Shown: positions 3,764 through 57,090 of the stretch, piece after piece
Layout of the letters: each line of letters begins with the position of its first letter
Position numbering within the stretch: the stretch's first letter is position 1
NCBI RefSeq assembly: GCF_000154285.1
Contig: NZ_DS483477.1
Coordinates: 310,001-374,000, forward strand
DNA length: 64,000 nt
Reading direction: 5' to 3'
From: Amedibacillus dolichus DSM 3991
Lineage (GTDB): Bacteria; Bacillota_I; Bacilli_A; Erysipelotrichales; Erysipelotrichaceae
Translations under genes and position numbers: made by a program
Notes under the pieces: generated by a model
Told to the model about the DNA's origin: nothing
The model's database searches: none
The model's input: the letters and a program-made list of their open reading frames with translations, nothing else

Positions 3764-4040
3764 ATAAACAAAATGGCATGGAAGAGAAGAGTAAACAGAG
3801 AAGCCTTTTAAAGAGAGTTCTTATTTGGTGAAAGAGAACAAAGAAACTGACTGTTGAAAATGGTCTTGGAGCTGCATGGTCGATGAATGGGTAGGCTATG
3901 ACGTGTTCGCTCGTTACAGCGATAGAGTATAACCTGTGATGCAGGCGTACTTGAAGAGGTCGGTTTCGTGAGAAATTGATGAATTTAGGTGGTAACACGA
4001 GCACAAGCTCTCGTCCTAAGGGGTGAGAGCTTTTTTTTGT
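3764..4040 (+). ncRNA. T-box leader (tRNA-Met sensing) of metNIQ
   Basis: The leader ends in the T-box sequence AGGTGGTAACACGA (3987-4000) followed by a terminator: AAGCTCTC (4005-4012) pairs with GAGAGCTT (4025-4032) and a T-run follows. The TGGT of the T-box would pair with an ACCA tRNA end. The specifier can be placed by aligning this leader with the valS leader in the same window. Both contain GTCTTGGAGCT, preceded here by ATG (3860-3862) and in the valS leader by GTA. Uncharged tRNA-Met should therefore stabilise the antiterminator and turn on methionine uptake. Confidence 0.9.
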
Positions 4041-9159: not shown

Positions 9160-9651
9160 TTATTTATCGTTTTTCCATATTTTAGCAAGCAGTGGATAGG
9201 CACAGCAGGCAATTGCGATACCGATTAGCGCTTGTAAAAGATTGGCAAACATGCCACTAAAGCCCAGCCAAAAACTTTCGTTGATCAAGCTGTCAGCAAG
9301 AAAATATCCCAATATCATGGCAGCTCCTGCAAGAAAATAACTGAGTAGACGCAGAGCTTTGCGTTGCTGGCAAATATAGGCAATTATCCATGCCTCTAGG
9401 CCTTTGATCAATAGGGTAGGTAGCGCATATATGCCATAGCCTCCGACAATATCGGCAAGTGCACTACCGACACCGCCTACAAGAAATGCTTGCCAAGGAT
9501 TTAGAAAGCTGGCAAAAAGCATGAGAAATCCATCACCTAAATTAAAATAACCTTGAATTCCGTTAGGTATTTTTATCAAATAGGTAGCCAAAAATACAAG
9601 TGCCATTCCAAGTGCGCTGATAATCAGTGCGTATGTTTTTGTTTGTTTCAT
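9160..9651 (-). CDS. ECF transporter S component (vitamin uptake, PdxU/HmpT-like)
   Basis: A 163-residue membrane protein with about six hydrophobic helices. The start is taken at 9651 (MKQTKTYALI), with AGGAAG correctly spaced before it; a longer frame exists but lacks a ribosome site. The motifs GYFNLGDGFLMLFASFL and GGVGSALADIVGGYGIYALPTLLIKGLEA are characteristic of the ECF_ribofla_trS-type substrate-binding subunits, which share a common EcfAAT energising module encoded elsewhere. The divergent MocR-type regulator suggests a vitamin-B6-related substrate, but that is inference only. Confidence 0.75.
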   Translation of the reverse strand: MKQTKTYALIISALGMALVFLATYLIKIPNGIQGYFNLGDGFLMLFASFLNPWQAFLVGGVGSALADIVGGYGIYALPTLLIKGLEAWIIAYICQQRKALRLLSYFLAGAAMILGYFLADSLINESFWLGFSGMFANLLQALIGIAIACCAYPLLAKIWKNDK

Positions 9652-9687
9652 TTCATCACTTCCTTTATGCTTGTATTCTAACAAATA

Positions 9688-9711
9688 TCTGTATGTTGAA
9701 AAATATACAGA
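9688..9711. promoter_or_regulatory. Inverted repeat, candidate operator between the S component and MocR genes
   Basis: TCTGTAT (9688-9694) and ATACAGA (9705-9711) form a perfect 7-bp inverted repeat with a 10-base spacer. It lies between the two divergent starts, so one regulator dimer could control both. Confidence 0.5.
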
Positions 9712-9737
9712 ATTTAATAAAAATAGCAGGTCAGATA

Positions 9738-9746
9738 TGCTATACT
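9738..9746 (+). promoter_or_regulatory. Extended -10 promoter of the MocR gene
   Basis: TGCTATACT is an extended -10 element about 16 bases before the likely ATG at 9762, giving a very short leader. Confidence 0.55.
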
Positions 9747-9761
9747 GTGATGGGTGATAAG

Positions 9762-11129
9762 ATGAAGATGAATATAACCAATTTTGAAAAAAAAGCACAT
9801 TCGTATCTTTATCAACAGATTGCAGATCAGTTGGCCATGGATATTCGTTTGGGGTATTTGAAGAAGGGAGATCAGCTGTTAAGTATTCGTAAGGCTGCAC
9901 AATACTATCATGTTTCTAAGACATGTATCGAGCATGCTTATGAACAGCTGCTTGTCGATGGCATCATCACAGCACATGCCAAACGTGGCTATTTTGTGGA
10001 TACCAGCAAGGAGCAGTTGCTTCTGCGCTCAGAAATCTTAGCCGATAAACCGCTTGATAAACCATCTATTCGCTATGATCTATGTTCACAAAGCATTGAT
10101 TTTGAAACCTTTGATACAATGCTTTGGAAACGATATATAAAGGATATATTGGAACAAAGCAGCAGCATTGCTACCTATGGTGATCCACAGGGAGAAAAGC
10201 AGCTGCGTATGGCATTATCACAATATGTTTTTACGATGCGTGCGGCATTGGCACAGCCACAACAAATTGTAGTTGCTTCCAGCTTTCAAGCTCTTTGTTA
10301 CCTGTTGTTTGGGTTGCTTTCAAAGCCTTGTGTGGTTGGAATGTGTGAGCCGATGTTTCTGCCTTTGCAGGGTGTTTGCCAAGACTATGGTATAGAAATC
10401 ATTTCACTTCCAAGTGATGAAGATGGCATTAATCTTGAAGCATTATACCAAAGCCCTGTAAATGTACTGTATGTTCATGCACGTTCTGATGGAGCTAAGT
10501 ATCAGCCGCTTTCGGTTGCTAAACGGAAACAACTGTTGACATGGGCAAAGGATAAAAAAGCTTTTATAATCGAAGATGATCATAATGGGGAATTGCATTA
10601 TGAAACACGTATGGTACCGGCCATGCAAAGCTTTGATGAGGCAGGGAGAGTATTGTATATCGGTTCGTTTTCTCGATTGCTGCTGCCTTCTTTGCGTATC
10701 AGCTATATGATATTGAATAAAGAGCTACTTGCCCGTTATGAAAAGCGTAAGGAATATTATAGTCCAACGGCCTCTAAGGTGGAGCAGCTGGCATTGGCAG
10801 GCTACATCTTAGATGGGCATTTGCAGCGACATATCAAACGGTTAAAAAAGTGTTATCGAGTAAAAAGTGCTGCATTTCAGCATTTCTTGAATATTTATTT
10901 TCCCGATGCAGAGCTAATACTGGAAGAAAGCGCTTTGCAGTATCACATTGTACTTACGGAAGCTTATGATATGGAGGCAGTGGTTCGGCTTTGTAAACAA
11001 AGACAGATTCGTATCAATCAAAGACAAAAAAAGCAGGAGCTGACACTTTCCTTTGCGGCGCTTTCTCTTGAAAATATGGAACAGGCATTGCAGGAAATAA
11101 AGCTTTGTTTACGACAGGCGAAACTGTAA
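9762..11129 (+). CDS. MocR/GntR-family regulator with degenerate aminotransferase domain
   Basis: About 455 residues. The N-terminal winged helix (YLYQQIADQLAMDIR ... LLSIRKAAQYYHVSKTCIEHAYEQL ... AKRGYFV, about 10-80) is a normal GntR DNA-binding domain. The rest has the fold-type-I aminotransferase layout of MocR regulators. However, the PLP-lysine motif, normally GTFSK, reads GSFSRLLLPSLR, so the Schiff-base lysine is Arg. The EDDYDSEF motif reads EDDHNGEL, and the PSHQFPTG loop is lost. It is divergent from an ECF S component, which it probably controls. Start choice among ATG 9750, 9762 and 9768 is uncertain. Confidence 0.8.
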   Translation: MKMNITNFEKKAHSYLYQQIADQLAMDIRLGYLKKGDQLLSIRKAAQYYHVSKTCIEHAYEQLLVDGIITAHAKRGYFVDTSKEQLLLRSEILADKPLDKPSIRYDLCSQSIDFETFDTMLWKRYIKDILEQSSSIATYGDPQGEKQLRMALSQYVFTMRAALAQPQQIVVASSFQALCYLLFGLLSKPCVVGMCEPMFLPLQGVCQDYGIEIISLPSDEDGINLEALYQSPVNVLYVHARSDGAKYQPLSVAKRKQLLTWAKDKKAFIIEDDHNGELHYETRMVPAMQSFDEAGRVLYIGSFSRLLLPSLRISYMILNKELLARYEKRKEYYSPTASKVEQLALAGYILDGHLQRHIKRLKKCYRVKSAAFQHFLNIYFPDAELILEESALQYHIVLTEAYDMEAVVRLCKQRQIRINQRQKKQELTLSFAALSLENMEQALQEIKLCLRQAKL

Positions 11130-24914: not shown

Positions 24915-24925
24915 ATAGATGTTAT

Positions 24926-25026
24926 ATGACTGACGGATAAAGTGGAAATGACCACAGGAAGTATAATGTTGATAAAAGCCGACCGTCTGGGCAGAAAAGT
25001 CCGGTTTAGGTGCGGCTTTTCTTTTT
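24926..25026 (+). ncRNA. ZTP (pfl motif) riboswitch with terminator expression platform
   Basis: The 5' part GACTGACGGATAA, then the GTGG-AAATGA-CCAC hairpin with GGAAG after it, and the 3' part CCGACCGTCTGGGC match the ZTP aptamer consensus (GACTGGCG ... CCGCCTGGGC). The two joint changes ACGG/CCGT keep the pseudoknot pairing. The 3' aptamer half lies inside a terminator: AAAAGCCG (24974-24981) pairs with CGGCTTTT (25013-25020), followed by a T-run. Binding of the folate-starvation signal ZTP should therefore prevent termination and raise pflB transcription. The location directly before pflB is the classic context that named the pfl motif. Confidence 0.92.
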
Positions 25027-56867: not shown

Positions 56868-56873
56868 GGTAAC

Positions 56874-57090
56874 ATATAGCGAGGAAGAGAAGGAGTACAC
56901 AATCCCTTTCTTGACAGAGAGCTTTTGGTTGGTGAAAAAAAGCAGAAGGATTTGTGGAAGGTAGTCTTGGAGCTTTCATTTTGAAAAGAGCAGTAGGAAT
57001 GAACGTATACACGGCGTTATCGTGTTGAGGCACAGACATGTGTGAAGTAAGGTGGTACCACGCGACAGCGTCCTTTAGGGGCGCTTTTTT
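56874..57090 (+). ncRNA. T-box leader (tRNA-Val sensing) of the GNAT-valS operon
   Basis: The leader contains the T-box AGGTGGTACCACGCG (57050-57064) followed by a terminator AGCGTCC / GGGGCGCT (57067-57084) and a T-run. Aligned on the shared GTCTTGGAGCT with the metN leader, the specifier position is GTA (56961-56963), a Val codon. The TGGT in the T-box would pair with the tRNA ACCA end. Uncharged tRNA-Val should thus promote read-through into the GNAT gene and valS. Confidence 0.92.

Follow-up and report, generated by a model that had tools for sequence, protein, structure and literature searches.

A PdxR-lineage regulator with arginine at the Schiff-base lysine position, encoded divergently from an HmpT-like ECF S component

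A MocR-type regulator gene and a divergent S component gene

The window analysed here is a stretch of 64,000 nucleotides from Amedibacillus dolichus DSM 3991, within which an earlier sequence-only reading had drawn attention to the range 9160-11129. This range comprises two genes, a regulator plus an S component. The regulator gene (9762..11129, + strand) encodes a protein of 455 aa. Its most likely start is the ATG at 9762 (protein MKMNITNFE...), from which the residue numbers of the regulator are counted; the ORF itself is open from the GTG at 9627. Pfam analysis of the protein revealed GntR (38.7 bits) and Aminotran_1_2 (50.3 bits) matches and, together with the structure match, demonstrated the MocR architecture, in which a GntR winged helix is joined to an aminotransferase-like domain of fold type I. 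AlphaFold2 modelling (mean pLDDT 90.5) gave a structure best matched by GabR (4n0b, Z 43.2 over 433 residues) and PdxR (7pq9, Z 41.0), and the modelled fold looks intact. The protein scored 345.2 bits with the NCBIfam PdxR equivalog NF052282, above the cut-off of 320; two other arginine-type relatives (see below) scored under this cut-off, with 283.8 and 287.0 bits.

The second gene (9160..9651, - strand, running from 9651 to 9160) encodes an ECF transporter S component of 163 aa that is B6/HmpT-like. It matched PF07155 with 102.4 bits (cut-off 26.7), and the sole related chain in the PDB was 4hzu_S (E 1.4e-7). This chain is HmpT, alias PdxU2, and pyridoxamine was extracted from HmpT (PMC4860826). 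The sequence-only reading had described the regulator as divergent from an ECF S component, and this arrangement recurs: a PF07155 partner lay within the tested distance in 17 of 20 arginine-type loci. Elsewhere in the window, two T-box leaders (3770-4021 and 56873-57078, both + strand) and a ZMP/ZTP riboswitch (24916-24999, + strand) were observed.

Arginine occupies the Schiff-base position throughout a sub-group of relatives

The motif GTFSK of MocR regulators reads GSFSR in the window protein, and the sequence-only reading had concluded that the PLP lysine is gone. The alignment to MocR/PdxR families that it had proposed as a check was run and placed Arg305 (codon CGA, 10674-10676, + strand) in the lysine column, opposite Lys312 of GabR (HMMER) and opposite the PdxR lysine (HMMER and MAFFT).

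Relatives were collected in two sets. Within the same family, 145 genomes were searched, and 40 of them yielded 43 matches with an E value of 1e-20 or better. Of these matches, 30 became loci (that of the window included) and the 13 others were left out of the lysine reading. In the 30 loci, the Schiff-base position held Arg 18 times, Lys 10 times and Ile twice. The second set consisted of the best 80 of 207 relatives from named genomes, sought with patterns from the clade itself, and the resulting counts of lysine-bearing and arginine-type proteins are therefore not a census. Besides the window, alignment A1 held 19 of the other 29 loci, omitting L017, L025, L028, L031 and L033-L038. After duplicate removal, the full alignment, including the best 80 of 207, contained 93 rows, 73 with Lys and 20 with Arg. 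Two of the 73 were canonical PdxR outgroups, leaving 71 lysine-bearing members of the clade. The K-to-R change thus defines a sub-group of 20 among the 93 aligned rows (best 80 of 207 included).

Arginine stood at the Schiff-base column in 20 of the 20 arginine-type rows of this alignment (best 80 of 207 included), and no alternative lysine in that column was found by alignment in any of the 20. Arginine is unable to form an internal aldimine. The earlier claim that the protein cannot form this bond is upheld by the chemistry of the residue together with the lack of a lysine in the column of all arginine-type proteins. The arginine codons of the 19 fetched loci were AGA (9), CGT (3), CGA (3), CGC (2), AGG (1) and CGG (1), so that all six codons are in use; the window uses CGA. 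Because the residue is invariant while all six codons are used, arginine appears to have been selected rather than reached by decay, and a switch between AGR and CGN codons in which arginine is never given up would be a mark of such selection. Decay of the pocket was ruled out on the same grounds. A functionless degenerate copy, or a misread codon in the sequencing, would draw a little support from the fact that the K-to-R column is a single codon. It is already contradicted by the open frame of 455 codons, the arginine shared by sequences from many genomes, the retained operator (see below) and the confidently modelled fold, and its probability is practically negligible.

In the tree, a starred group of 22 comprised the arginine rows and two lysine rows (L039 and L042 in the printed tree), and at least two changes between Lys and Arg were required (2-3 in the bootstrap). 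Long branches and an uneven composition were flagged by the program for this tree, which fits either a single loss followed by a return to lysine in L039, or separate losses.

The Schiff-base lysine and the aspartate that contacts the pyridine nitrogen are stated in PMC6677901 to be conserved across all MocR clusters. The clade-wide, apparently selected replacement of the lysine by arginine departs from this description, and no lysine-less MocR proteins were found in the open-licence literature searched.

A second loss of the same lysine was found in another PdxR lineage of the same order, in which 28 of 30 loci carried Lys and two loci of one genus, L182 and L183, carried Ile. Both face an S component, and so does the lysine-bearing L190 of that genus; the protein P0003 (L038/L182) scored 494.3 bits as PdxR. 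The Ile-type genes, L037:1465-2850 (+, = L183) and L038:1354-2760 (-, = L182), are divergent from the ECF S component gene, and their products have near-canonical EDDYDSE and HxYPTG motifs, the sister L190 keeping its Lys. Short PdxR-like ORFs of about 350-370 aa were also observed, with matches ending near residue 365 of 468 (for example G001:C3:13117-14187, G057:C189:3721-4758 and many in genus g32). They seem to be without the C-terminal small subdomain, and some lie near a PF08543 match (G057:C189:5051-5599, G124:C1:2540209-2540889).

Other pocket residues are shared with lysine-bearing relatives or retained

Two further changes named by the sequence-only reading proved real: EDDYDSEF of PdxR reads EDDHNGEL (10572..10595, + strand), and the PSHQFPTG loop is absent, HARSDGAK (10476..10499, + strand) standing in its place. 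As marks of PLP loss, both were rejected, since both also occur in lysine-bearing relatives. The residues N275-G276-E277 that follow EDDx were present in 20/20 Arg rows as well as in 71/71 clade Lys rows (best 80 of 207 included), from which it follows that NGE predates the loss of the lysine, and the loop varies in lysine-bearing relatives too. On this sequence comparison, EDDxNGEL and the loss of the loop characterize a larger clade, most of the remaining members of which have retained the lysine, and of the three changes listed earlier the lysine change alone appears to be specific.

Comparison with GabR of Bacillus subtilis revealed an alike fold. Three pocket residues, Asp272, Ser302 and Arg312 (corresponding to Asp279, Thr309 and Arg319 in GabR), were kept in 20/20 arginine-type proteins; a Ser or Thr thus precedes the lysine position in all of them. 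The role of Thr309 is presumably that of the equivalent residue in aspartate aminotransferase. Asp279, which contacts the pyridine nitrogen, and Arg319 have their roles given in Table 2 of PMC6917764. In contrast, Lys312, Arg207 and Phe250 of GabR are lost, His274 stands at the position of GabR Tyr281, and the neighbouring gene is other than gabTD. The ring-stacking position (GabR Tyr205) was aromatic in 8/20 arginine-type against 71/71 lysine-bearing proteins, the latter including the best 80 of 207 (Fisher p 4e-10, for rows that are not phylogenetically independent). It is thus relaxed in 12/20 arginine-type proteins, while the window protein retains Phe199. Thr181 of the phosphate loop is lost. 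Because stacking is relaxed and Thr181 is gone, PLP binding may be weaker or lost in part of the clade.

A covalent bond to PLP could in principle be formed by another lysine, such as Lys339, which was conserved in 19/20 arginine-type proteins and is Ser in GabR. The same lysine is as conserved in lysine-bearing relatives (68/71, best 80 of 207 included) and has therefore not arisen as a replacement. By alignment, Lys339 would be no substitute for Lys312, and this explanation is highly improbable.

Taken by its architecture, the regulator is a MocR; with Asp272 present and Arg305 in place of the lysine, it is not a PLP-lysine MocR.

The S component pocket and vitamin B6 genes of the host genomes

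The six pocket positions occupied by E, H, Q, Y, N and Q in HmpT read D, K, E, Y, N and Q in 17/17 partners of arginine-type regulators. Three are thus identical (Tyr116, Asn137 and Gln140 in the window protein, corresponding to Tyr120, Asn140 and Gln143 in HmpT), one is a conservative change (Glu41 to Asp40) and two are changed (His84 to Lys83 and Gln87 to Glu86). Accordingly, the S component is described here as HmpT-like and not filed as HmpT. The sequence relationship suggests vitamin B6 as its substrate, which may differ from that of HmpT in view of the His84 and Gln87 replacements. In the partners of lysine-bearing regulators the pocket reads D, K, M (18/19) or E (1/19), Y, N, Q (best 80 of 207 included). 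Lys83 was observed in each of the 36 aligned S components of type A (17 + 19, best 80 of 207 included) and could contact the phosphate or the aldehyde of the vitamer.

Among the 71 clade members with lysine (best 80 of 207 included), 19 had a type-A partner, 24 a type-B partner and 28 none within the tested distance. A strict pairing, with the lysine-less regulator always beside one S type and the lysine form beside another, was rejected: L039 combines Lys with the same S type, as do Clostridia members with lysine. In L041, a tandem pair of S component genes (G043:C3:151407-151874 and 151925-152389) lies ahead of one arginine-type regulator gene.

In the window genome, no match to PF01680 (PdxS) and no match to PF08543 (PdxK/ThiD kinase family) was found. 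PF01680 was matched in 11/145 genomes and in 0/18 of those with an arginine-type regulator; judged by their gene content, all 18 look auxotrophic for vitamin B6 by the PdxS route. PF08543 matches in the 18 genomes were strong in eight (best E 1e-20 or better) and weaker in nine, and the window genome gave no match; sugar kinases probably account for the weaker matches. No work joining Erysipelotrichaceae, vitamin B6 and PdxR was found in the open-licence literature searched.

These data bear on the possibility that the regulator senses a different small molecule, perhaps a vitamer without phosphate or some other compound imported by the S component. The departure of the S pocket from HmpT at two of six positions in 17/17 partners would fit, and without a PF08543 kinase in the window genome an imported form might escape phosphorylation by a known kinase. 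Against this stand the phosphate- and pyridine-binding residues kept in the regulator, and the presence of Lys83 in 19/19 partners of lysine-bearing regulators as well (best 80 of 207 included). Sensing of a different molecule is thus considered quite unlikely.

A putative three-box operator lies between the two genes

The sequence-only reading had noted a 7-bp inverted repeat between the two starts. This repeat is exact (9688-9694/9705-9711) and proved to be two thirds of a longer element, namely boxes 1 and 2 of a putative 48-bp operator with three boxes (9689..9736, + strand), recognized by its shared register and a position weight matrix (PWM). The boxes are CTGTAT (9689-9694), ATACAG (9705-9710) and TCAGAT (9731-9736), separated by 10 and 20 nucleotides. 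Across the intergenic regions the consensus has the fixed spacing CTGTnn-N10-AnACAn-N20-ACAGTT, and the same register was found in 16/17 arginine-type regions, box 1 being weak in L050. The matrix was trained on 17 sites, 16 of the arginine type plus L039. In a scan of the 64-kb window the operator was the top hit (40.0; next 8.0), the window site being within the training set, and the genome scan gave one exact copy and three sites with two mismatches. The window operator agreed at 15/18 box positions against 13 for the best of 200 shuffles. The corresponding values were 15 against a shuffle maximum of 15 in L053 and 14 against 14 in L041, and L057 scored 11, its chosen start codon having left the region short. 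Because such single-site statistics are modest, the case for the operator is built on the common register and on loci that were not used to train the matrix.

Two such loci are S genes unlinked from the regulator gene in G111 (score 22.5) and G087 (44.8), genomes of the same genus whose arginine-type regulator has no adjoining S gene. Both S genes carry the operator in the orientation of the linked loci; L163 and L164 are from one genus and hence perhaps reflect a single separation event. No operator score above 1.5 was obtained for 12 control S genes from genomes without a clade regulator, one of which, G011, encodes a canonical PdxR opposite pdxST. At the control S genes the top score among 10 shuffles was as high as 13.1, so that only scores well above this value count. 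L172, an S gene product of 31% identity in G014, where the arginine-type regulator has no adjoining S gene, scored an ambiguous 11.4. No operator was found near the regulator gene itself in L040, L052 and L058.

Among the lysine-bearing rows, 39 of 70 scannable upstream regions scored at least 20 (best 80 of 207 included), with a highest shuffle of 8.1; the 70 include L039 from the training set and two canonical PdxR, and three further regions were too short. As the other 31 scored below 20 (best 80 of 207 included), the operator does not extend to the whole clade. Among the 39 are L115 and L137, which face pdxS, and L129 and L131, which face a PF08543 kinase of the pyridoxal-kinase type. Since lysine-bearing relatives face these genes, the same operator appears to serve genes of vitamin B6 synthesis, salvage and uptake. 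At L093:3960-4871 and the related loci L097, L118, L122, L123 and L136, lysine-bearing clade regulators of Thomasclavelia-type genomes were observed to face no B6 gene; the facing gene encodes a PALP-family PLP enzyme (domain tested in L093), and the operator score there was low.

The conserved divergence, the shared operator and its persistence at the separated S gene support a tie between regulator and S component at the sequence level. By descent, operator and target type the regulator is of the PdxR (vitamin B6) lineage, yet it lacks the lysine.

A likely promoter of the S gene (9675..9702, - strand) consists of TTTTCA, 16 nt and TAGAAT with a TG ahead of it, and operator box 1 sits in its spacer. 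The -35 is poor and the promoter consensus scan was weak alone (2 found against 1.5 expected); visual inspection showed TAGAAT in L041 and L043 as well. For the regulator gene, a likely extended -10 (TGCTATACT, 9738..9746, + strand), found by eye and absent from the scan output, directly follows box 3. With box 1 in the S gene spacer and box 3 beside the -10 of the regulator gene, the arrangement fits a PdxR-like protein that activates its target and represses itself, although the regulator may instead repress both promoters directly.

Possible modes of vitamin B6 sensing

The conserved arginine suggests that vitamin B6 status is read without the usual bond, or is no longer read. The reading we prefer, which we hold to be evenly balanced between right and wrong, is that of a PdxR-lineage regulator of a B6-type ECF S component that binds no PLP covalently and reads a B6 phosphate reversibly. 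The regulator would bind the three boxes between the two genes, occupying both promoters, and, by analogy with PdxR, would switch the S gene on when vitamin B6 is short and repress its own gene. A phosphorylated vitamer (PLP, PMP or PNP) would be read by reversible, non-covalent binding in a pocket offering Asp for the pyridine nitrogen and Ser/Arg for the phosphate. Non-covalent reading of a B6 phosphate is favoured because these phosphate and pyridine contacts are kept, even though the invariant Asp272 and Arg312 could be structural.

Alternatively, the regulator may be deaf to PLP and locked in an apo-like state, with the B6 importer always on and the regulator gene always repressed, Arg305 shutting the empty pocket, for example in a pair with Asp272. 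In the PdxRs studied, the apo form is an activator and PLP an anti-activator (PMC5320631), and the EnuR variant Lys302His is without PLP binding and acts as a constitutive repressor (PMC8739950). EnuR Lys302His and the window protein are both MocR proteins without the PLP lysine, although the former is man-made and carries His (PMC8739950), whereas the latter represents a natural clade with Arg. The relaxed stacking residue in 12/20 proteins, the exchange of the same lysine for Ile in a second lineage and the lack of PdxS matches in the arginine-type genomes point the same way. A constitutive switch, however, needs no regulator, yet Ser302, Arg312 and Asp272 are invariant in 20/20 proteins over long branches, and we regard the locked state as rather unlikely.

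The sequence-only reading had proposed that the protein senses another compound, perhaps the substrate of the S component. The tie to the S component stands, while an unrelated compound is disfavoured, as vitamin B6 itself is indicated by the operator, the lineage and the neighbouring genes. Because the pocket residues are kept in 20/20 proteins, a B6 phosphate read without a covalent bond and a PLP-deaf regulator are each likelier than a wholly new ligand. In a tentative and somewhat doubtful extension of non-covalent reading, the natural change from lysine to arginine would have made a sensor that bound B6 covalently into one that binds it reversibly and reads the incoming vitamer pool in auxotrophs, the Ile-type loss being independent.

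In comparison with PdxR of Bacillus clausii, Listeria, Corynebacterium and Streptococcus (MocR, GntR), the Schiff-base lysine is here a conserved arginine. The arginine clade, whose close sisters share the operator but have kept the lysine, offers a ready-made test of the role of the covalent bond in signalling. It also provides a genomic handle on vitamin B6 uptake in Erysipelotrichaceae without a recognisable PdxS.
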